Origin: a virus
Virus record (IMG/VR): IMGVR_UViG_3300000928_000463
Span: 1-26,598 of that record
Length of the DNA: 26,598 nucleotides
Strand: one strand, 5' to 3'
Below, piece after piece: positions 6,695 to 22,579 of this stretch; within the stretch, counting starts at the first letter, position 1, and every line of letters begins with the position of its first letter. Made by a program: the position numbers and the translations under genes. The notes under the pieces are model-generated. The model worked only from the letters and a program-made list of their open reading frames with translations, ran no database searches and was not told where the DNA came from.

Positions 6695-6720
6695 ATCTAT
6701 ATATATACGGGTGTTTATTA
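6695..6720 (-). promoter_or_regulatory. Extended junction element before the scaffold gene
   Basis: Between the stop of the last array gene and the scaffold ATG the minus strand reads TAAACACCCG, then TATATATAT, then AGATATG. This keeps both ends of the array junction (TAAACAACAG-AGATATG) with a nine-base TA-rich insertion. It may be a leader or a weak promoter; the TATATA core would suit a -10 box. Confidence 0.4.
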
Positions 6721-6987
6721 AATGGCAAAGTATGCCTCTCCTAAAAGTTCTTGGAATAAGTCAATGTCAATTCTGCGCATCACAATTGGGTATATCTCTT
6801 CGAATACACCATAGGCCCTTTCATAGTCTTCTTCTATAACTGCTTCCTCTACAATGTCTAAGCCATACAAGAATGTATCTTCTAGCACATAGTCCAGGCG
6901 AAATTCACCGATCATAGCCAGAAGTTCATCCTGGGCTGAGTTGGTGAAGCCATCCCAAATTCTACTGATCAGTGGGTTTCTATACAT
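6718..6987 (-). CDS. Small acidic array protein 8, unknown
   Basis: An 89-residue protein, MYRNPLISRIWDGF at the start, with about 20 Asp/Glu against 6 Arg/Lys. It appears all-helical, with a run of acidic helices in the middle (DIVEEAVIEEDYERAYGVFE). It has no cysteine and no membrane helix. It is the last of eight consecutive tiny acidic genes. The junction before it differs from the others (TAA, then ACGTTACTA, then ATG), so it may be an older or separate member. I do not recognise a family. By charge, size and company with ArdA it could be a DNA mimic or counter-defence protein; that is inference. Confidence 0.7.
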   Translation of the reverse strand: MYRNPLISRIWDGFTNSAQDELLAMIGEFRLDYVLEDTFLYGLDIVEEAVIEEDYERAYGVFEEIYPIVMRRIDIDLFQELLGEAYFAI

Positions 6988-6996
6988 TAGTAACGT

Positions 6997-7236
6997 TTAA
7001 CTGTATTTGTTGTAGAGTTGATTATCAACTATTTCAAAATCTACGCTCCGATCATCATACATAACGACAAGTAATTCTTCCCAATTTTTACCATCATCTA
7101 AATTAACTACGATAAAATCATCATCCATATAATGGTACAAAGTAAATAATGGAGTCAGTTTATATTCTTCTCCATAATCTAATGAGTCTAAAAGACGTGG
7201 AGTAATTTTATCTAATGCTTCATCTAATTCACTCAT
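6997..7236 (-). CDS. Small acidic array protein 7, unknown
   Basis: A 79-residue protein starting MSELDEALDKITPRLLDSL, with about 20 Asp/Glu against 6 Lys/Arg. A helical N-terminal third is followed by beta-like segments with acidic patches (HYMDDDFIVVNLDDGKNWEE). It has no Cys and no transmembrane segment. It is preceded by the conserved TAA-ACAACAGAGAT-ATG junction. I recognise no family; like its neighbours it looks like a compact soluble acidic domain that could imitate a nucleic acid surface. Confidence 0.7.
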   Translation of the reverse strand: MSELDEALDKITPRLLDSLDYGEEYKLTPLFTLYHYMDDDFIVVNLDDGKNWEELLVVMYDDRSVDFEIVDNQLYNKYS

Positions 7237-7247
7237 ATCTCTGTTGT

Positions 7248-7484
7248 TTAAACTATTAACGCAATGTTTTCAATTGCCTCACAATCAGACATGATTTCAA
7301 GCAAATCGTCACGTAAAAAATCATAACCCTCTGCCCATACATTACCCACTAATTCTCTTCCTGTGCAATCATTATAAATAATTACTTCGTACTCCATTGA
7401 AGTTCCTCCACGATCACGTTCAAAAGGAATGTCTTGCGTCCTAACATCGTAATCATCTAGAAAGTCTTGTGTAGTATATGCCAT
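7248..7484 (-). CDS. Small acidic array protein 6, unknown
   Basis: A 78-residue protein starting MAYTTQDFLDDYDVRTQD, with about 19 Asp/Glu against 5 Arg and no Lys. It has a central beta-like segment (MEYEVIIYND) and a C-terminal acidic helix (DFLRDDLLEIMSDCEAIEN) ending in a hydrophobic IALIV, an ending also seen in proteins 3 and 4 (VITLF, VTLLV). It carries the conserved junction on both sides. The family is unknown. The shared hydrophobic C-terminus hints at a common edge strand or docking point, but that is a weak inference. Confidence 0.7.
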   Translation of the reverse strand: MAYTTQDFLDDYDVRTQDIPFERDRGGTSMEYEVIIYNDCTGRELVGNVWAEGYDFLRDDLLEIMSDCEAIENIALIV

Positions 7485-7495
7485 ATCTCTGTTGT

Positions 7496-7723
7496 TTAGT
7501 AGCCAGGAAACACTTCAATAAAAAGTCCCTCTGCCGCCCTATACACGTCAAAATCCATATCAGCAAATTCTCGCTCAATATTACTTATTTCTGTTAAATA
7601 CGTTATTACATCTGAAGACGTTATGCCCGTGTCATCAATGTAAATCCCATCTGAATCTGCGCCTTGCACAGAAACACCGTAATCTTCTCTAAGTATTAGT
7701 GATAATAGCTCTAAATCGTACAT
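7496..7723 (-). CDS. Small acidic array protein 5, unknown
   Basis: A 75-residue protein starting MYDLELLSLILREDYG, with about 17 Asp/Glu against only 3 Arg and no Lys. The layout looks like helix, acidic turn (ADSDGIYIDDTG), helix, then strand (LFIEVFPGY). The IYIDD stretch also occurs in protein 1 (DIYIDDYG), where it again sits after an acidic turn, a faint sign that the array members may be related. It has conserved junctions on both sides. No family is recognised. Confidence 0.7.
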   Translation of the reverse strand: MYDLELLSLILREDYGVSVQGADSDGIYIDDTGITSSDVITYLTEISNIEREFADMDFDVYRAAEGLFIEVFPGY

Positions 7724-7734
7724 ATCTCTGTTGT

Positions 7735-8013
7735 TTAAACTAGTAATGTAACATAAACAATAAAGTCCCCATTATCATCTTCTGTGTCCCAAGTAAAATC
7801 ATAATACTCGTCCATCCACTCAGGAAATTGTTCCCTAACAAAAGCATCTAATTCAAACCTTTTAATGTCATCAATGAATAGGTCAAGGGCAAACTTACTT
7901 ACGTAAAATGCACTTCCCCTTTTGCTTGGTACATAGCCTATGTACTCGAAATCAGTTTCATCTGCTAAGAAGTCACCAAATGCTTCTTGCGCTCTATCGT
8001 TTGCGTATGCCAT
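7735..8013 (-). CDS. Small acidic array protein 4, unknown
   Basis: A 92-residue protein starting MAYANDRAQEAFGDF, the largest of the eight, with about 22 Asp/Glu against 7 Lys/Arg. It has a central helix (SKFALDLFIDDIKRFELDAF) followed by an aromatic acidic stretch (EWMDEYYDFTWDTEDDNGDF) and a hydrophobic end (IVYVTLLV). The many Tyr, Trp and Phe residues near acidic ones resemble the surface composition of known DNA-mimic proteins. It has conserved junctions on both sides. No family is recognised, and function is inferred only from context. Confidence 0.7.
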   Translation of the reverse strand: MAYANDRAQEAFGDFLADETDFEYIGYVPSKRGSAFYVSKFALDLFIDDIKRFELDAFVREQFPEWMDEYYDFTWDTEDDNGDFIVYVTLLV

Positions 8014-8024
8014 ATCTCTGTTGT

Positions 8025-8264
8025 TTAGAATAAGGTGATCACGATAGTTTCTTGAGTATAACTTGTTATGTCATAATCTCGGAATCCCATGTCCCACACA
8101 ATGTCTTTAATGTCATACTCCCATTCCATAGGATCACCTGCACCGTTTCGGTCAATGGTTGCTTCACCCTGTCCAAAACCATTAATGCCTGCGTACCTAA
8201 CGCTATAACCTAGACGTTCTACTTCGTCCATAAAGGCATCTAATTCTCTTTGTGTTACTTGCAT
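8025..8264 (-). CDS. Small acidic array protein 3, unknown
   Basis: A 79-residue protein starting MQVTQRELDAFMDEVERLG, with about 16 Asp/Glu against 6 Arg/Lys, the least acidic of the set. It opens with an amphipathic helix, then a Gly-rich part (YAGINGFGQGEATIDRNGAG) and an acidic aromatic part (MEWEYDIKDIVWDMGFRDYD), ending ETIVITLF. Its leader is the only variant copy of the common junction (ACAACACGGAT). No family is recognised. Confidence 0.7.
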   Translation of the reverse strand: MQVTQRELDAFMDEVERLGYSVRYAGINGFGQGEATIDRNGAGDPMEWEYDIKDIVWDMGFRDYDITSYTQETIVITLF

Positions 8265-8275
8265 ATCCGTGTTGT

Positions 8276-8506
8276 TTAGTATTCAATCAGTCTTTCATCA
8301 CCACCGTTCCGCAAAAACCAATCTTCCCATTCTCTATCTAAAAGCAATTCTCTTTGATTTAATTGCCAAACAAATTCAGGTTCGTTTACATCATAGTTAT
8401 ACGCAAAAAATGTTTCTAGAATTGACTCCGCTTCATAGCTATTTCTACCAAAATAATCATTGACTAAATCATATAACTCGCTCCAACTCCTAGGTGTACT
8501 ATCCAT
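8276..8506 (-). CDS. Small acidic array protein 2, unknown
   Basis: A 76-residue protein starting MDSTPRSWSELYDLVNDYF, with about 18 Asp/Glu against 6 Arg and no Lys. It appears all-helical and aromatic-rich (VWQLNQRELLLDREWEDWFL). It begins after a conserved junction and ends in TAC TAA at the next. It has no Cys and no membrane segment. No family is recognised; the DVNEPEFVWQLN stretch may be a useful search seed. Confidence 0.7.
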   Translation of the reverse strand: MDSTPRSWSELYDLVNDYFGRNSYEAESILETFFAYNYDVNEPEFVWQLNQRELLLDREWEDWFLRNGGDERLIEY

Positions 8507-8517
8507 ATCTCTGTTGT

Positions 8518-8763
8518 TTACAAATAATCAATCTCAACGTCTGGCTCCTCGTTTGCCAAATCTTCCATAACCTCAACGAAAAATGCTTCCTCGTCGAAAT
8601 CCAGGTTTACAGTGATTTCAACTAATCTACGCATATCGCCTTCGTCAGCATCGACATAACCATAATCATCAATGTAAATATCTAAATCATCTTCGCCTGC
8701 ATCTCTTTGGTCCAGGTAATCGTGTACCTCATTAAATGGTAAACCTTTAATTTCTACTATCAT
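8518..8763 (-). CDS. Small acidic array protein 1, unknown
   Basis: An 81-residue protein starting MIVEIKGLPFNEVHDYLDQ, with about 28 Asp/Glu against 4 Lys/Arg, the most acidic of the array. It has a long acidic middle (AGEDDLDIYIDDYGYVDADE) and an acidic helix near the end. Such a charge density is typical of DNA mimics such as Ocr or ArdA and unusual for ordinary phage proteins. It follows the ArdA-like gene by 17 AT-rich bases (no common junction) and is linked to protein 2 by the first conserved junction. No family is recognised. Confidence 0.7.
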   Translation of the reverse strand: MIVEIKGLPFNEVHDYLDQRDAGEDDLDIYIDDYGYVDADEGDMRRLVEITVNLDFDEEAFFVEVMEDLANEEPDVEIDYL

Positions 8764-8780
8764 AATAATTTAATTTATTC

Positions 8781-9506
8781 TTAGTATGCTCTAAAGATGT
8801 AACCTCCAATTTCTTCGAAGCCATCGTATCCAAGATCCTTTGCAAATTTCTTGTAGTCAAAGTAATCACTCATCTGATCACCCAGTGCAGATTTTATATC
8901 CCCGACTACATCATAGATATACCATTCAGCTACCTGAGTGTCTGACATTCGCATCATCTCATCATATATAGCTTGGGCTTCTGCTTCAGTGTCATAACGA
9001 TCTTCCCAATCATCCATGATCATTGCATAAATATCACCGTTGGCCTGTAGTGCATAACCAAAAGAATCAAAGTTAAAGTACCGTTCTGCTAGATCCTCAT
9101 CAATTCCAATGTCATCCAGCAATACATACGCATAATCCAGGACGCTATCTTCTTCGCCCTGGTACGCATTTTCCATAAAATCTTTGAAGTCATTGTAGCC
9201 TCCCATATCTGCGGCTGCCTGTACAATTACTTGTGCTGGTACTCCGTAATCCTTTGATACCTCAAATAGCTGTTCGTAATTACGCCATACTGTTTCGTCC
9301 TGATTAATGCTGTATGCTTCATTCTGACTCAGGAAATCCCAGTCTACAATTTCATAATCTACAAATCCTAAACTATCAACCTGGCTTTGGAAATCATCTA
9401 CAAATAGATCCCAGGTACGATACTTTAAAGGCTCAAACATGATGTCCGTGCTGCCTCCTGTCGGTAGGTAGATACGGTACCATACTGTTATATCTGTTCT
9501 GTTCAT
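8781..9506 (-). CDS. ArdA-like antirestriction protein with extra C-terminal half-repeat
   Basis: A 241-residue, strongly acidic protein. Family knowledge: ArdA is a dimeric DNA mimic that blocks type I restriction enzymes and is usually about 165-170 residues. Here VDYEIVDWDF (near 48) matches the ArdA segment EEYAIHDYE, AYQGEEDSVLDYAYVLLDD (near 114) matches its middle, and DLAERYFNFDSFGYAL (near 138) matches its terminal NYIDYQAYGRDL motif. About 80 residues follow, ending in a second version of that motif, DYFDYKKFAKDLG, then GGYIFRAY. The protein is thus an ArdA core plus a duplicated end. It heads the array of eight acidic genes and has its own promoter candidate. It lies in the head module, an unusual place for an antirestriction gene. 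Confidence 0.75.
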   Translation of the reverse strand: MNRTDITVWYRIYLPTGGSTDIMFEPLKYRTWDLFVDDFQSQVDSLGFVDYEIVDWDFLSQNEAYSINQDETVWRNYEQLFEVSKDYGVPAQVIVQAAADMGGYNDFKDFMENAYQGEEDSVLDYAYVLLDDIGIDEDLAERYFNFDSFGYALQANGDIYAMIMDDWEDRYDTEAEAQAIYDEMMRMSDTQVAEWYIYDVVGDIKSALGDQMSDYFDYKKFAKDLGYDGFEEIGGYIFRAY

Positions 9507-9512
9507 TGCTGC

Positions 9513-9541
9513 AATATATCTAATAATGATGTATTAACCAA
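9513..9541 (-). promoter_or_regulatory. Candidate promoter for the ardA-like gene and acidic array
   Basis: On the minus strand TTGGTT (9541-9536) and TATATT (9518-9513) are 17 bases apart. The -35 box overlaps the stop codon of the protease gene. The -10 box ends six bases before the ATG at 9506, so the transcript would begin at or near the start codon. This would allow the array to be expressed independently of the upstream tail genes. No experimental support is visible. Confidence 0.45.
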
Positions 9542-10505
9542 ATTTTTGTTTGTATTTGGCCTTGAGGTAATGACGGTAAAATGTAACCTTCTGCATATCC
9601 AGTTCCACCTTTTCCATTGCTACTACCTCATCGTTTTCTGTTTCAACCTGGGTTTCTTCTACTGCTTCGACCTGACCATCCCATTCAATTAAGACGTTAT
9701 CAAACACCTCTAGTTCAACGCCAGCCTCAGTTTTGTATTTGCCATTTGGCATATCATCTGGGTTACCCTCTGAGTTTATTTGTTTTACAATGCTTCCCGA
9801 TTCAAAGGCCTTATCCTCTGTACTTAAAACAATGCCGTTGTCCAGGGTAATTTCGCTGTAGAAAGTACGCCTACCCATTAGGCTAAGTACCTGTTTCCAT
9901 AGCTTATTTGCCATTGATTGATCAGTACGGCTCAAGCGTTTTTGCGGTTTGCGTTCGCTCATTTCTTCTACGCTGTCGATAAAATAACCTTCAATCGAAA
10001 AGCCACGAATAGATCCGTTTCGGACCTCTTCCCACATCTCATCGTTTGCCACTTGCACCCGTACCATCCAAGTCCCTTTCGGCATTTCCATCCCGTAATG
10101 CTTGCTTTTATCCATAGAAGGTTCTTCTACGATCCAGCTTTCCACTACGTGTACATCTTCAACAGGGCGTTCATGTTCGAACGTATGCGAATTAGTTCGG
10201 CTGTTCATCATGTACATCTCTGAGGCCTGGCGTACTGTAGACTCTGAGAAATAAACGTCGTACTCTTCGCCCGTGTTATCGTCAAACCTTGGGATTTCTT
10301 TTTCAGGAATTAAGGCAGGCCCAATTAGGGTGCGCTTATCCTCCTGAATCGCTGCGAGGCTCAAAGCCAAGGTGTTTTTACCTTTGCTAAAGAACACAAA
10401 ATTCTCTTCGATTGCAGGAAATTTAACCAGGCTAATTGCCTCCACTGGCAATCCCTCGGTTTCATCTCCAATAATCAATTCTACTAGCTTTCTGTTTGCT
10501 CCCAT
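9534..10505 (-). CDS. Head maturation protease, XkdF-like
   Basis: A 323-residue protein. Residues 1-175 follow the pattern of the XkdF-type serine protease: VKFPAIEENFVFFSKGK (28-43), LIGPALIPEKEIPRFDD (60-76), DVYFSES (83-89), then TNSHTFEHERPVEDVHVVES (104-123), DKSKHYGM (132-139) and NGSIRGFSIEGYF (163-175). S170 and H107 or H111 are the likely catalytic residues. The enzyme cleaves scaffold and capsid precursors in the procapsid. The C-terminal half has an acidic tail and a short basic helix at the end, possibly a scaffold-like segment. It lies between tape measure and antirestriction array, with a 20-base leader that resembles the array junctions. Confidence 0.8.
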   Translation of the reverse strand: MGANRKLVELIIGDETEGLPVEAISLVKFPAIEENFVFFSKGKNTLALSLAAIQEDKRTLIGPALIPEKEIPRFDDNTGEEYDVYFSESTVRQASEMYMMNSRTNSHTFEHERPVEDVHVVESWIVEEPSMDKSKHYGMEMPKGTWMVRVQVANDEMWEEVRNGSIRGFSIEGYFIDSVEEMSERKPQKRLSRTDQSMANKLWKQVLSLMGRRTFYSEITLDNGIVLSTEDKAFESGSIVKQINSEGNPDDMPNGKYKTEAGVELEVFDNVLIEWDGQVEAVEETQVETENDEVVAMEKVELDMQKVTFYRHYLKAKYKQKFG

Positions 10506-10528
10506 ATCTATGTATATACTGCTGTTTA
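10506..10528 (-). promoter_or_regulatory. Extended junction element before the protease gene
   Basis: After the tape-measure TAA stop the minus strand reads ACAGCAG, TATATACAT, AGAT and then the protease ATG. Both ends match the array junction (TAAACAACAG and AGATATG), with nine extra TA-rich bases between them. It could be a leader or hold a -10-like box; its likeness to the junctions at 6695-6720 and 7234-8520 suggests a shared origin. Confidence 0.4.
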
Positions 10529-12262
10529 CAAAACTGTTTGCTCCTGTAGCTTAGAGGCCATAGCCATTTGTCCCTGTAGTTGACTTTGTACTACGTAAGC
10601 CTGCATACTGTCTGGCGTATCCAATCTGGCTGGTAACGGTGTTTGGATGTTAGGGCTTGGGCCAAAGCCTGATCGACCAGCCCCACCTCCTCCACCTCCT
10701 CCACCAGTGCTGCCTCCGTTGTATTCCTGGTTTTTGATTTGCTTTACTCTTACCAGGCCAGACGCTACCGCTGCTGCTGCTGCCAATGTGCCCCTTATTG
10801 GTGCCGTAGGATCTGTAGGCACAGGCATAAACTGAGAAGTGTACGCCTTCTGTGCCGAGAAATAAGTGCTAATCAATGCTTCTGCTATGCTCAATTTTTT
10901 CTGTCGATCAAACGCCTGCTTGCTGTCTTTCTCTCCCTTCTTTGTAAACAGGGTGTTTAAACTTTGGATCGTGTCCAGAGTGTTCATGACATTCTGTTCT
11001 TGCAAACTCAATGCTTCTTGTTTGCCTCGTACAATATCTTGATCGGCTTTTAGTGCAGCATCCTTTTCTTTTTGAGCATCGGCTTTTGCTTTTTGAGCAT
11101 CGCGTGTTGCTTGCTCTTCTCTTTTAATCCTGAACTGCTCCGTCAGATCGGCAGTATCCATTTCGTACTGACGTTGCAAAGCCAGTAACTCACCATAACC
11201 AGCTTCTCTTGCATCCAATTCGGCTTTAGCATCTTCGTATTGAAGTTCACGTTTACGCTTCGCCCTGGCTTCTTCATCTTCTATACCTCTGAGTTCCAAA
11301 TCTCGCTGTATGGCCAGCAGTTTAGCAGCCCTAAATTCCGCATCGGCTTCTCTCTTTGCAGCATTTTTATCTCTAACGCGCTGGGCATCATCTTCTGCTT
11401 TCTGTGCGTTGTCATTTGCCCTTAGCTGATAACCTGCACGTTGGTTTTCTAGCTTCAACAACTGCTCTTCTGCCTTTTTTACAGCATCTTCTCCGCTTTC
11501 TTCTACGCCTTTAGGATCAAAAAGCAGATCGCCAATGCCTGTATATAGTCCTGTCGCTAGGTTTGTTTTTTCCGCTAACACTCCAATCCTTACTAAACCT
11601 TCACTTATTAAATCAATAGATGCCAAAACTGCGGCTACAGGAGCAGATACAAACATTAAAAGCCCTGCTACTACATCGCTGGCTTGTTGCGCGGCTGCCG
11701 CCTGTTCCGTTTTCTGCGACTTTAAAGCCTCTAGCATAATTCTTTGCGCTGCGATAGCCTCATCGGTGGCACTCATGCGCATTGCCAAAATCTCTTCTTC
11801 TGTCTTACCCTGTAGCTTTAATATATTTTCCTGGGCTGAAATGTTGTCTAGCTGCTCTTTGCTGGTTGCTACTAACTCCTGGCCGTATTTTACTTGCTCT
11901 TTCGTTTCATCTGTTGCGCTACTAATTGATCCCGATATAGCATCCCAGTTTGCCACTAACTCACCTAATGCCACCACAAGCAATCCCAGGCCCGTAGCTG
12001 CAATGGCACCCTTTAATACAGTGAAACTCTTAGAGAGCCTGCCGATCTGCCGCTGTGCGCCCTTAAAACCCCTAACGGTGCTTTGTAGTCCACGCGGCAA
12101 AAGGCTGCTAAACAGATCCCCAAATTGGGAAAAGTCTTTGCTTGACTTTTTACCGACTCGTTCGGTTTCTTTTCCTAAGTCACGTACAGCCCTAGTAGTT
12201 TTCTTGATCGGGCCTGTAGCCTTTTCAGTGCTAACTATGTTAATGTTCAGCGTGTTCGCCAT
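10526..12262 (-). CDS. Tail tape measure protein
   Basis: A 578-residue protein with the usual tape-measure make-up. It has a basic helical N-terminus, a hydrophobic segment at about 82-103 (AIAATGLGLLVVALGELVAN) and a second at about 197-220 (VVAGLLMFVSAPVAAVLASI). A long charged coiled coil follows from roughly 255 to 430, rich in Ala, Lys, Glu, Gln and Arg. Then come a Gly-rich linker (GGSTGGGGGGGGAG, about 525) and a short C-terminal domain. The tape measure sets tail length and enters the cell envelope during injection. At about 0.15 nm per helical residue this would give a tail near 85 nm, an estimate only. The ATG at 12262 overlaps the 59-residue gene upstream by 23 bases. Confidence 0.85.
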   Translation of the reverse strand: MANTLNINIVSTEKATGPIKKTTRAVRDLGKETERVGKKSSKDFSQFGDLFSSLLPRGLQSTVRGFKGAQRQIGRLSKSFTVLKGAIAATGLGLLVVALGELVANWDAISGSISSATDETKEQVKYGQELVATSKEQLDNISAQENILKLQGKTEEEILAMRMSATDEAIAAQRIMLEALKSQKTEQAAAAQQASDVVAGLLMFVSAPVAAVLASIDLISEGLVRIGVLAEKTNLATGLYTGIGDLLFDPKGVEESGEDAVKKAEEQLLKLENQRAGYQLRANDNAQKAEDDAQRVRDKNAAKREADAEFRAAKLLAIQRDLELRGIEDEEARAKRKRELQYEDAKAELDAREAGYGELLALQRQYEMDTADLTEQFRIKREEQATRDAQKAKADAQKEKDAALKADQDIVRGKQEALSLQEQNVMNTLDTIQSLNTLFTKKGEKDSKQAFDRQKKLSIAEALISTYFSAQKAYTSQFMPVPTDPTAPIRGTLAAAAAVASGLVRVKQIKNQEYNGGSTGGGGGGGGAGRSGFGPSPNIQTPLPARLDTPDSMQAYVVQSQLQGQMAMASKLQEQTVL

Positions 12263-12419
12263 TGCGTAGAATTAAACCCATTTTGTATAGGGTTGGATTG
12301 TTCAACTTATACCTGCCATACCATCGAGCCAGGACGGGATGCCCACTATATATATACGTTTTTGATAATCGTATGCTGTTAGGCACACCATATCCCACTG
12401 CGTTAATCCAATATTTCAT
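12240..12419 (-). CDS. Small basic 59-residue protein between tail protein and tape measure
   Basis: An ORF too short for many gene finders. The ATG at 12419 shares ATGA with the stop of the large tail protein, and the TAA at 12240 lies 23 bases inside the tape-measure gene. The product starts MKYWINAVGYGVPNSIRLSK and is rich in Tyr, Arg, Lys and Asn, with about 9 Lys/Arg against one acidic residue. It has no clear membrane helix. The overlap at both ends and the absence of any other use for this 150-base gap support a real gene. Function is unknown; by position it may be a small tail assembly factor. Confidence 0.6.
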   Translation of the reverse strand: MKYWINAVGYGVPNSIRLSKTYIYSGHPVLARWYGRYKLNNPTLYKMGLILRNGEHAEH

Positions 12420-15400
12420 AGCGGTAAATTGTAGTACATAGTTTCCTCTGGGTTTAGGTTGCCCGTTTCTACTATGGATGGATCAAGATTAAACCATATT
12501 GCCCTTGCTACAGTATCAGCTGTGCCTGATAGCTGCATGGAAGTTGTTTTCATATTAATGAACCAGTTGCCGTTTACATTGGCAGGGCCAGTACATTGCA
12601 CTTCGTAGAAGGAATTATCGCCATCTCTGACTTGAGTTTTTACAATGTCAACACTGCTTGTAACTCCTGCGTCTTTGTTTTCTGCAACGATCTGCGTAGA
12701 TCCAACCGTTCTAGTTACTGCCTTTTGAGAAGGCCCCGTTCTAGTGTTAGCGACGGTGCCTTGAATTTGACTGGTATTTGCTTTGCCAACAGTTCCTGAA
12801 GAACCACCCGTTTCTACAAATACCGCATCAAGTTGCAGATAAACGATCGTATCCAATGGGATTTGAAATAGCTGCTGCTGCGATACATTTCTTGCGCTTA
12901 TTGTTGTAGTTGAAACGCTGCTTGCGGTTAGCTGAATTTCGTTTGTAGTTCCTACAATTCCTTTCTGTGCAAATGGCTCGCTTCTGCTGGCTCTAGGAAA
13001 AGAATGATCTACTGCATTGGGTTGTGCGTTTTCATCCAGGTGACCTGGTTGGTGACTGTCACCACCTACACCACCCCCACCATTACCACCTCCACCGCCT
13101 TCGCCACCACCACCGCCATCATCAGGCGGCCTCCAAAAACAAACTTTTCTTTGTTCGTTCCAAACGTAACCAGCTAAAGTGCAACACGGTTCTGTAGCAT
13201 CAACTGCTGTACCATTAGCATCTACAAAGTTTACTGTGCCGTCAGTATTAAATGTGCCAGGTTGAGCATTACAATCATTACTGATTCTACCTACTGGCTT
13301 GTTGATGACCTTTAGCAGCGTTGCGTTTGCAAGGTCATTGCTGCCTATCACATAGTTGTTAATAGACAATACACGCCAGACGGTACCATCTAAATAAAGG
13401 TTGTCATTAAATCTAAGATTGTATAACTCACTGTAACTCAAGTTGATACGACACGCCATTATACGTGCTTCATCGCTGTAAATCTCATTGAACATCTGCG
13501 ACCAGTACGTATAAAACGCATAGTCCAAAGTTGTTCCTTCTGAAGTCAAGCCGCTAATAAAAGGAGCATTGAAATTATCTGGCCAGTCGTACCCCCAATT
13601 TAAACTCTTTGTACTTAGAGAAACTCCTACTTCGTTAAACTCTGAAAAATACGGGTATGTCGTATACAGCGATCCACCAAATTCAAATTGCGCTCCGTTG
13701 CCTATGCTTTGCAATCCATTGTAGTATGCCAGGACTGGCTTACAACTGGTAAATTCTTTCTGGTACATTTCAGCTTCCGATCCATCTTTCCAACTCCAGA
13801 AACAAGGCAGCAATACATTTGGAACTACACTGCTGCCCGTGTTTTGTATGTTAGAAAACAGTTCCCGATTACGAAGCGGCTGAAATATCTGCTCCGTTTT
13901 ACTGGTGCCTGTGGCAAAGTCATTGGTATTGTGATACGTGTACTTTCCTTTTACCCATCCGAAATTATGCTGCCACCAGGCGTTTGGAAAATCAGCACCT
14001 TCTGCATCACTAAATTCGTACGTCTGTTTTTGTAGCTTGGTAGTTGGTTCAATCTTAATGCTGTCCTGGTCTACTATTTCTGTCCAGTCCTGTAGATCAG
14101 TAGATTCAGCCCACCAATCTTTCCAAGGCTCAATTTGAACTACTGTTGGTGAATCCAACTTTGAAACTATTACCAGGTTGAATCGCTCAATTATTGATTT
14201 CAGCCATTTGTCTACGCTAAATCCAGGGAAGTTTTCTGATACGTCTACAAACTGATTGCTTGAGCCAAAACTTTCAAGGTTGATATTTGTGGTAGCATTG
14301 CTACCCGTAGCTGATACGGTAACCGCATTTGAGGAATTTGTGTGTGCTACATAGAATGTCACTTGATCGTTAGCCTCAAGGCTCAGACTAAACGAATGAT
14401 TGTGAACTGTTTCTGTTTGATTAAATGCTGATGATACCTGATCGTTTACAATCGAATTTCCGTTTATTAATACTTTGACATAAAAATAGTAACCGCCAGA
14501 AGTGGCACCTGCTGTTGTGTTAGTTACGAATGTAGTTGCCACGTTGAACACTCCCTGGTATGGAGCCTGAAATAAACCGTTTTGGATAAGGCCATCAGGA
14601 TCAAAAAACGGGCTGGTACTTTCGTTTGTAAATGCTACGTTGTGCCATACGCTCGCGTCACCTGCTGGCAATAGCAAGTCTTGACTAATGCCTACCCTAA
14701 ACCCGTATGTTACCCTGCCTGTAGCACGTATACGATCCAAGGCCAGAAACATATAAATTTTCTGAGCATCTGCACTTTGCATCCAATTGCTTTGCACCGT
14801 GTAGCCTGCTCGATTAAAAATGTATTCCAACACGTACGTAATACGTACTGCTGGCTTCATATTTAATACGCTCAGGGTAGTATCATTCATACCTATGTCC
14901 ACGATCCCTGAGTTCGTGAAACCTTGATTGTAATAAAAACCTAAGCCCGTTCCTGCCGACTGGCTGTTAAAGCCAAGGCCAGCACCTGAATCTGCTAATG
15001 GGTAAACAATAGTGCCTGCACCTACCGATCCCGTTGTAATGTCGTACGAGGTATCCCAGCTAAGGCGTACGTTTGACCAGTTTAAAGCATGATCCAAATC
15101 AGTGTCTACCAGGCCAGCATCGGTAGTAAACAACTGGTTAAAAGTCATACCCTTTACTAGATCAAAAACCTTAGCGATCTTTTCAAGAACACCAACTTCG
15201 TACCCGTCTTTTACCGCGTGCAGTTGTAAAACGCCTTCCATCATAAGCAGGCCATCTGCGTATATAACCGCTTCTGTTTTCACTAGAGCATCAAACGTTC
15301 CTTCGACTGCATTTGCGTTAAAATAGAAACTAAAGAATTTATCGTTAGCCCTGGAGAACGGCAGTACAAAATTTAGGCTGTGTGGGCTTCTGCTGCTAAA

Positions 15401-21748: not shown

Positions 21749-22184
21749 CTGATAGTGTGCTTAATGAATGTGAATGCAAATGGTATGCCTTGTATACTTC
21801 TGCATCAAACCATCTGATTTCCTGCAATATACAAAACACTTCGTCAATTTGGTTTTCTATTTCTTGGTGGTTTATTTCATCTATTTCTGTAGTATTGTCT
21901 TTCAACAAAACAAGTGGATAATCGTGTGCCATTTGCTCATCATGCTTCTTGTACTTATAGTAAAATCTGCTCTTTTTGCTAAACGAACAAATGTGAATAG
22001 TTCGGCATACATACCGCATCATCTCGTTTCTATCAATCAAAGCAATGTATTTATTTGGTTTCTCTAAATACACTACACACAAATCACCGATCAAATCAGC
22101 AGCAAGGCCTTTACCTACATACTTGTTTGCTACCCGTATTAGGTAGGCATAGTTTTCTTCTATCCAAGTATGTAGCAAACTCAT
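21486..22184 (-). CDS. Sigma-70-like (ECF-type) regulator
   Basis: I choose the ATG at 22184, which shares ATGA with the NinG stop (an ATG at 22205 is also in frame). The 232-residue product resembles region 2 of a sigma factor near its start (LIRVANKYVGKGLAADLIGD, then VVYLEKP and MMRYVCRTIHICSF). Region 4 appears around residues 130-165 (DAEVYKAYHLHSHSLSTLSD, then TGISKNTIYKAIKTAQAHL). It would direct host RNA polymerase to phage promoters. The last 60 or so residues (GYGGSVDTRSSEGC on) overlap the next gene in another frame and look unconserved. I am sure of the HTH, less of true sigma activity. Confidence 0.7.
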   Translation of the reverse strand: MSLLHTWIEENYAYLIRVANKYVGKGLAADLIGDLCVVYLEKPNKYIALIDRNEMMRYVCRTIHICSFSKKSRFYYKYKKHDEQMAHDYPLVLLKDNTTEIDEINHQEIENQIDEVFCILQEIRWFDAEVYKAYHLHSHSLSTLSDATGISKNTIYKAIKTAQAHLEENTQRIRGYGGSVDTRSSEGCSQQNSRGGLRMRQTEGMVKQTVSLLQTFERSRQEAMGRSPGSST

Positions 22185-22579
22185 TCTGGAAATCGTCTGT
22201 CCCACTCTTTGCGCATCTCTACAATTTCCTTTGTAGTAAACTTCTGCATTGTGTTTGATAGTCGAACAATTCGATCAGCAGTTCCTTCACCATACACCGC
22301 ATCTAACCTTTTACCGTAGGCATATTGCTGGCCTCCGTTAGTTAAATTGCAATGCTTGCACTGGGGCATCATATTCACCAGGCCATCCTCTGGTTTGTAT
22401 AGCCACCTCGTACTATACTTAGATCGCGTTTGAAAATGGCCGCAATCCATTTCGTACTTCCAACTGCCAGACTTACCACAAGTAAAACAAGCGCAGTTGC
22501 CATTGGCGTCTGCATTGCTTTTGCGTACATATCGACTAACTGCTGCGTCTAATTTTTTTACTTCGGTGCTTCTCTTCAC
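22181..22579 (-). CDS. ninG: NinG-like recombination nuclease
   Basis: A 132-residue protein with zinc-finger and HNH-like marks of the NinG/Rap family: CFTCGK (31-36), MDCGHFQTRS (44-53), then LVNMMPQCKHCNLTNGGQQ (67-85) with C74, C77 and N78. Lambda NinG (Rap) is a structure-specific endonuclease that acts on D-loops and Holliday junctions in phage recombination. The C-terminus is a helix pair typical of the family. It is near the replication genes and shares ATGA with the sigma-like gene. Length is somewhat shorter than lambda NinG (about 200). Confidence 0.8.
   Translation of the reverse strand: MKRSTEVKKLDAAVSRYVRKSNADANGNCACFTCGKSGSWKYEMDCGHFQTRSKYSTRWLYKPEDGLVNMMPQCKHCNLTNGGQQYAYGKRLDAVYGEGTADRIVRLSNTMQKFTTKEIVEMRKEWDRRFPE

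Follow-up and report, generated by a model that had tools for sequence, protein, structure and literature searches.

Organization of the locus

Seven acidic open reading frames (ORFs) of 75-92 aa follow one another on the minus strand, from position 8763 to position 6997 of the window, by which the whole analysed stretch of viral DNA is meant (26,598 nucleotides). Each of these ORFs is treated here as one cassette, and the family numbers refer to the protein families described below. The first cassette (8518..8763, 81 aa) is acidic and its product has a predicted beta-alpha-beta-beta-alpha-beta fold (pLDDT 91). It is followed by cassette 2 (8276..8506, 76 aa), a member of family 7, which is found in five arrays, and by cassette 3 (8025..8264, 79 aa), which belongs to family 4, known from six arrays with seams of type S1 or S2 (defined below); for the latter an alpha-beta-beta-alpha-beta-beta fold was predicted, also with a pLDDT of 91. 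When the product of cassette 3 is set beside those of L017 and L033, the first 20 residues are near-identical and the middle is different, and an exchange within the cassette gene is possible. Cassette 4 (7735..8013, 92 aa, family 9) gave weak matches to DUF7167 (below the cut-off) and phrog_4124. The series is closed by cassette 5 (7496..7723, 75 aa, family 55), cassette 6 (7248..7484, 78 aa, family 8, which occurs behind S2 seams too) and cassette 7 (6997..7236, 79 aa, family 34).

The neighbouring genes lie on the minus strand as well. An ArdA-like antirestriction gene (8781..9506; PF07275, E=1.8e-8; phrog_2059, E=8e-9) adjoins the array, and next to it stands the gene of the head maturation protease (9534..10505; phrog_3017 and others), a fixed backbone gene which in many relatives is preceded by a seam of its own. 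The downstream limit of the locus is set by a conserved gene (6718..6987) which, according to the comparison of relatives' loci, belongs to the backbone and is not a cassette. A NinG/Rap-family recombination nuclease is encoded at a distance (22181..22579, minus strand; phrog_5034, 4.6e-20; PF05766). Besides these, the record of this 26.6-kb virus contains genes of a terminase, a portal protein, a tape measure protein, a replication initiator and an amidase. The terminase is closest to those of phages of Bacteroidota (Phocaeicola, 38.8%) and a distant relative of the protease occurs in Nonlabens phage P12024L (41%), hence the host is probably a member of Bacteroidota. Since many related records measure 27-31 kb, the window may fall short of the whole genome by 2-4 kb. 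A search of named phages yielded no DNA match, nor did it turn up relatives of cassette 1 or the putative major capsid protein.

Anatomy of the seam

Consecutive cassettes are joined by six minus-strand copies of TAA-ACAACAGAGAT-ATG, the seam. In each of the six the preceding ORF stops with the TAA, the following one starts with the ATG and the spacer measures 11 nt. Five copies are the exact 17-mer TAAACAACAGAGATATG (8504..8520, 8011..8027, 7721..7737, 7482..7498 and 7234..7250) and one, TAAACAACACGGATATG (8262..8278), carries two changes, which bears out the six-fold 17-base repeat described in the initial annotation; its remark that a repeated seam joins the ORFs also stands, and its figure of eight products has to be corrected to the seven ORFs that the seams link. 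A chance origin is ruled out by an expectation of 0.17 copies in the window and by shuffled sequences, none of which attained six. No further copy was found in the whole window at up to three mismatches; the motif is absent from the other gene starts of the window, and the seam is missing before the first ORF of the array (8518-8763) as well as before the next ORF downstream (6718-6987). Read directly, the 17-mer is asymmetric and has no inverted repeats. A sigma-70-type scan of positions 6900-9600, the coverage of which leaves out Bacteroidota promoters, returned neither an excess of promoters nor a terminator.

At the junction of the tape measure stop and the protease start a degenerate seventh seam was recognised (10503..10528, minus strand). 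It reads TGTAAACAgCAG-TATATACAT-AGATATG, where TATATACAT is a 9-nt insertion. Most relatives have a cassette array at this junction, and the degenerate seam is possibly a disabled or empty acceptor site.

Arrays in related viruses

A scan of IMG/VR for the 17-mer gave 66 loci, the singletons among which are partly due to chance; many have 3-7 exact copies on the same strand, and up to 11 when mismatches are allowed. The same scan of 84,980 bacterial and archaeal genomes gave 34 hits, all of them single (approximately the chance level) except for one 5-kb contig of a metagenome-assembled genome (MAG), L091, and the arrays are therefore viral; the view of the array as a feature of bacterial genomes was rejected. 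The L091/L404 array contig was binned in a Pseudomonadales MAG (isolate name DEBay), its cassette order is identical to that of phage L014/L195 and it is probably misbinned.

Further relatives, unselected for the seam, were added by a scan with protease alignments. Many of them carry the seam of the window (S1, ACAACAGAGAT), and others have like arrays with other seams: S2, ACCACAACGAT; S3, AAA-ACAACTTAAAG; S4, CCAACAGAGAT; and S5, CACACAGAGAT. The scan for the third seam yielded mostly AT-rich chance singles and only multi-copy loci were taken from it. After removal of near-identical arrays, 48 arrays with 270 cassettes in 122 BLAST families were left, 62 of the families being singletons; the median cassette product has 78 aa and 98% have a pI below 5. 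All arrays come from metagenome contigs. With the exception of L208, the arrays (47 of 48) lie in one region of the head module, in which the tape measure gene, position A, the protease gene, position B, ArdA, position C, a conserved ORF, another ORF and the capsid gene (MCP) follow in this order; the array occupies position A, B or C, and in part of the arrays ArdA is missing or located elsewhere.

L208, an 88-kb contig, represents an unrelated larger phage and has, at 11401-12585, repeated leaders of the form ACAATAGAGAT-ATG, which precede small ORFs that mostly encode basic or membrane proteins; two copies each of the same leader are present in L226 and in L246/L248. In L005, L030, L033 and L041 a gene of approximately 270 aa, probably structural, stands between seams as a cassette.

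Exchange of cassettes at the seam

Among 193 pairs of homologous cassettes from different arrays, 4 had a downstream neighbour in common, where shuffled labels lead one to expect 2.0; the cassette order across arrays is random. Junctions were profiled in pairs with a protein identity of at least 85% and different neighbours. On the 5' side (n=44) the DNA identity is 92-96% in the gene, stays high through the seam and falls to 26-31%, the chance level, in the gene beyond; with one pair per family the values are 94% in the gene, 97% in the seam and 30% beyond. On the 3' side (n=50) an identity of 83-91% in the gene stands against 28-32% beyond it. Inside S1 and S2 arrays 247 ends of BLAST homology blocks were counted, 84% of which are placed at a seam in both partners, while the seam zone makes up 16% of array positions and pseudo-seams moved by 60-140 nt catch 0-2% of the ends. 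The blocks begin on the left with the TAA and finish on the right at the ATG or just past it, which means that they extend from seam to seam. An insertion of a whole cassette is seen between L012 and L059, where a common block of 2986 bp (99.9% identical) begins at a seam and L059 has one extra seam-bounded cassette immediately before it.

Viruses whose proteases, and thus backbones, are at least 95% identical have only 23 of 87 cassettes in common, and cassettes 97-98% identical in DNA occur in viruses with proteases 58-61% identical; the turnover of cassettes is consequently much faster than that of the backbone. In L152, L155 and L156 the proteases are 98-99.7% identical and the arrays almost wholly different. 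These comparisons demonstrate that single genes are exchanged and that the boundaries of the exchange lie at the seam. Of the two readings offered by the initial annotation, re-initiation of translation and exchange of cassettes, the latter predicted different genes between identical seams, and this was observed in the form of neighbours at the random level, block ends at seams and seam-bounded insertions.

The genes that meet at a seam are unrelated, as had been noticed from the window alone. In a profile-profile comparison of the cassette families only 2 of the 1256 pairs compared exceeded a probability of 90%, joining families 15, 16 and 21 and no others, and a common ancestry of the families was rejected on this ground.

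Conservation of the seam and its role in translation

The initial annotation had held that its reading would fall if the seam diverged like third codon positions or was absent from relatives with homologous genes; neither was observed. Among S1 homologues with 20-50% protein identity the identity of the spacers is 96% and that of fourfold sites 35%, although the collection of seams at up to two mismatches biases the former value upward. The less biased search with proteins only gave 336 distinct starts of homologous genes, of which 245 (73%) have the seam, or approximately 80% if one backbone gene is left aside. Many of the starts that lack it belong to that backbone gene (6718-6987 in the window), to the first genes of arrays or to genes outside arrays.

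The seam always abuts the start codon and is retained before first genes that have no preceding stop, for which reason it probably serves as a translation start region too. Imperfect seams are unevenly spread across downstream gene families (permutation p=0.0135) and not across upstream ones (p=0.76), which fits a tuning of translation; in family 4 (8025-8264 in the window) the seam is imperfect in all five S1 copies, each changed differently. The variants do not track the cassette, as the same variant was found in 4 of 32 homologous pairs. The seams contain no Shine-Dalgarno core and, judged by reading, S1, S2 and S3 have no obvious common stretch complementary to 16S rRNA. RNA accessibility at the seam starts is nothing unusual (0.52 vs 0.56).

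Seam types and partners of exchange

Twenty-four families, that of the protease included, are found behind more than one seam type, generally with the seam resident in the given genome; the seam is thus a trait of the genome rather than of the gene. In the protease tree S2 forms one clade and S1 does not (at least two changes are forced), the window joining S3 and S4 members with support of 100/99. At a protease identity of 45-70%, a cassette at least 80% identical was found in 35 of 240 array pairs with the same seam versus 0 of 434 pairs with different seams; these pairs are not independent, and when collapsed to backbone groups the counts are 18 of 58 and 0 of 157. None of the 167 S1-S3 pairs share such a cassette and 31 of 226 S1-S1 pairs do, while the proteases are on average more alike in the former. 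This distribution speaks for a requirement of matching seams in exchange, without proving it. The gating by seam type may instead reflect the separation of lineages by host; contigs with S1 and S2 co-occur in one metagenome (3300021197), which makes a simple geographic separation less likely.

Possible function of the cassette proteins

The two predicted cassette structures are small alpha/beta plaits of different order. A fold search against the PDB gave no E below 0.001 and nothing functional, the matches being generic or designed alpha/beta plaits, and the cassettes gave no protein-family match above the cut-off. An ArdA-like gene was found in 14 of 26 records, among them the window, and such genes adjoin the locus. 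Small acidic proteins in the vicinity of a known antirestriction gene are a feature of anti-defence (DNA-mimic) proteins, and this feature is encountered here. It weakly suggests that the cargo would most likely be a changing set of anti-defence proteins. The head protease is fused to an ArdA-like domain in L016/L018 (544 aa) and to a cassette-type protein in L043 (10344-11543). Such fusions hint at packaging, and the cassette proteins are perhaps packaged with the head.

Mechanism and alternative explanations

It is considered probable that the locus is an integrase-free cassette array, in which the seam, placed at the translation start, also offers a short homology handle. Each cassette would consist of one small acidic ORF ending with TAA, followed by the constant 11-nt leader and the next ATG, and the leader would act as the translation start region of every cassette. 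The presence of the same leader at every junction would provide a short homology handle, with which co-infecting phages could swap, insert or delete single cassettes in frame. The exchange would be carried out by general phage or host recombination, probably, as we infer, of the RecA type with the NinG/Rap nuclease, or by annealing during replication. If recombination requires matching seams, phages with the same seam would form an exchange community; such a community would keep the seam uniform and would explain the lack of recent cassettes common to lineages with different seams.

NinG/Rap, encoded in 22 of 26 records, is the only recombination gene recognised and thus a candidate helper of recombination at the seam; no ERF-family annealase was found in the 26 records and no known recombinase besides NinG among the window ORFs scanned. 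In phage lambda the deletion of rap lowers RecA-mediated recombination 300- to 500-fold (PMC3945230). Against the homology handle count the lack of an annealase in these records, the shortness of 14-17 bp for RecA, a possible separation of lineages by host and the fact that the conservation of the seam, taken by itself, could stem from selection on translation. More tentatively, with confidence somewhat short of even, the locus can be regarded as a natural cassette system of a new kind where the leader itself is the exchange site, every gain, loss or swap is in frame and expressed, and the leader is a compatibility code determining between which phages genes can be traded, with at least three incompatible codes (S1, S2 and S3) in one viral clade.

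The point about selection can be extended to an explanation of its own, in which the seam is a translation signal only, illegitimate recombination strikes anywhere and selection keeps those recombinants whose leader is intact and correctly spaced. The constant contact with the start codon, also in first genes with no stop before them, speaks for it, and so does the skew of imperfect seams towards particular downstream families, as gene-specific tuning predicts. It is nevertheless unlikely, as it leaves unexplained why the sequences of different lineages work equally and yet stay uniform within each, and why recent sharing never crosses seam types; moreover, start accessibility is ordinary, the other genes of the phage manage without the motif and the variants do not follow the cassette.

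The precision of exchange from seam to seam, the uniformity of the site and the conservation of a phage nuclease would agree with programmed exchange at the recognition site of a dedicated enzyme, either a site-specific recombinase resembling those of integrons or a nuclease with sequence specificity such as NinG/HNH. Little credence can be given to it: the window ORFs scanned include no integrase or transposase, the seam, which is asymmetric and contains no inverted repeats, reads as a leader, and NinG is present too in phages not known for such arrays, for example lambda (PMC3945230).

Equally improbable is that the seam is an RNA or DNA site of a trans-acting regulator which switches all cassettes together, the seams of the lineages following their regulators as in the case of stoperators or of the start-associated repeats called SAS, which have been proposed as possible binding sites (PMC3203893). 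Seams uniform in each genome and different between lineages are consistent with it, and misregulation of foreign cassettes could account for the gating; however, the seams have no promoter or terminator features, no regulator was identified and a regulator alone does not explain the mosaic breakpoints. An assembly artefact, in which short repeats join unrelated metagenome fragments, has a negligible probability even though every contig is metagenomic, for 17 bp is below the usual assembly k-mer sizes, the same arrays occur in independent samples (e.g. L195, L014, L404; L004, L027) and the order 55-8-34 of the window is found again in L038, a recurrence which refutes it in substance.

Relation to known systems

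A description of such a seam array was not found in the open-licence papers searched. The nearest precedents are the boundary sequences of lambdoid phages, the PeSL elements of T4-like phages and the SAS repeats that mycobacteriophages of Cluster K carry. The lambdoid sequences, termed “boundary” or “linker” (Susskind & Botstein 1978; Clark et al. 2001), are outlined in PMC3029335 as short and conserved; they lie where genes meet, have been proposed to direct the exchange of modules through homologous recombination and are not findable at most mosaic boundaries. Like them, the seam is short, conserved and placed at module boundaries, and the mosaic breakpoints of the arrays coincide with it; a mechanism of homologous recombination would be supported for the seam indirectly, by the gating of seam types. 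Unlike them, the seam is one lineage-specific sequence which recurs at all junctions of a long array, connects individual genes and takes in the stop and start codons.

PeSLs (Arbiol 2010; Comeau 2014), as presented in PMC4503421, consist of an early promoter and a terminator stem-loop. On that account they resemble the seam as short repeated intergenic elements that mediate gene shuffling among related phages, but the seam has 11 nt, lacks a promoter or terminator and lies between tightly packed ORFs of the head module; it was not classed with PeSLs since the sigma-70-type scan of 6900-9600 revealed neither of the defining parts. SAS is a 13-bp repeat situated just before the start codon ATG in numerous genes without relation to one another; it possibly serves translation, and the inverted repeats linked to it differ between subclusters (PMC3203893). 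The position directly before start codons of unrelated genes is common to both, whereas SAS has a Shine-Dalgarno core, larger intergenic gaps and a location in the non-structural half, with no array and no cassette exchange shown; the seam, ACAACAGAGAT, does not conform to the SAS consensus GGGATAGGAGCCC with its core.

Integron arrays are similarly built of promoterless single-gene cassettes with a common site between them and a shuffled order. Here, however, the common site forms the leader of the gene that follows, and the locus was not assigned to integrons, as no integron integrase (tyrosine recombinase) was found among the window ORFs scanned, where 2-4 kb may be missing, and no palindromic attC is present. 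In archaeal viruses many small unrelated genes, probably with anti-defence roles, are marked by a common upstream regulatory sequence, an early promoter (PMC11065993). The likeness lies in the marking of such genes by a common upstream sequence; the difference is that the seam forms an 11-nt junction between genes and a boundary of recombination. What is new here is that the array is built gene by gene, that its seam runs from stop codon through leader to start codon, and that the codes of the lineages agree with the pattern of exchange partners.

Significance for phage mosaicism

Whether phage mosaicism arises from short boundary homologies or from random illegitimate joining followed by selection is a long-standing question. 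The locus described here makes the boundary explicit, repeated, near-invariant and coincident with 84% of exchange points, the other seams serve as natural controls and the question becomes testable by swapping an 11-nt sequence. In addition, TAA-11-ATG seams offer a search key to small acidic proteins beside ArdA, a large pool still without annotation and plausibly a store of anti-defence genes.
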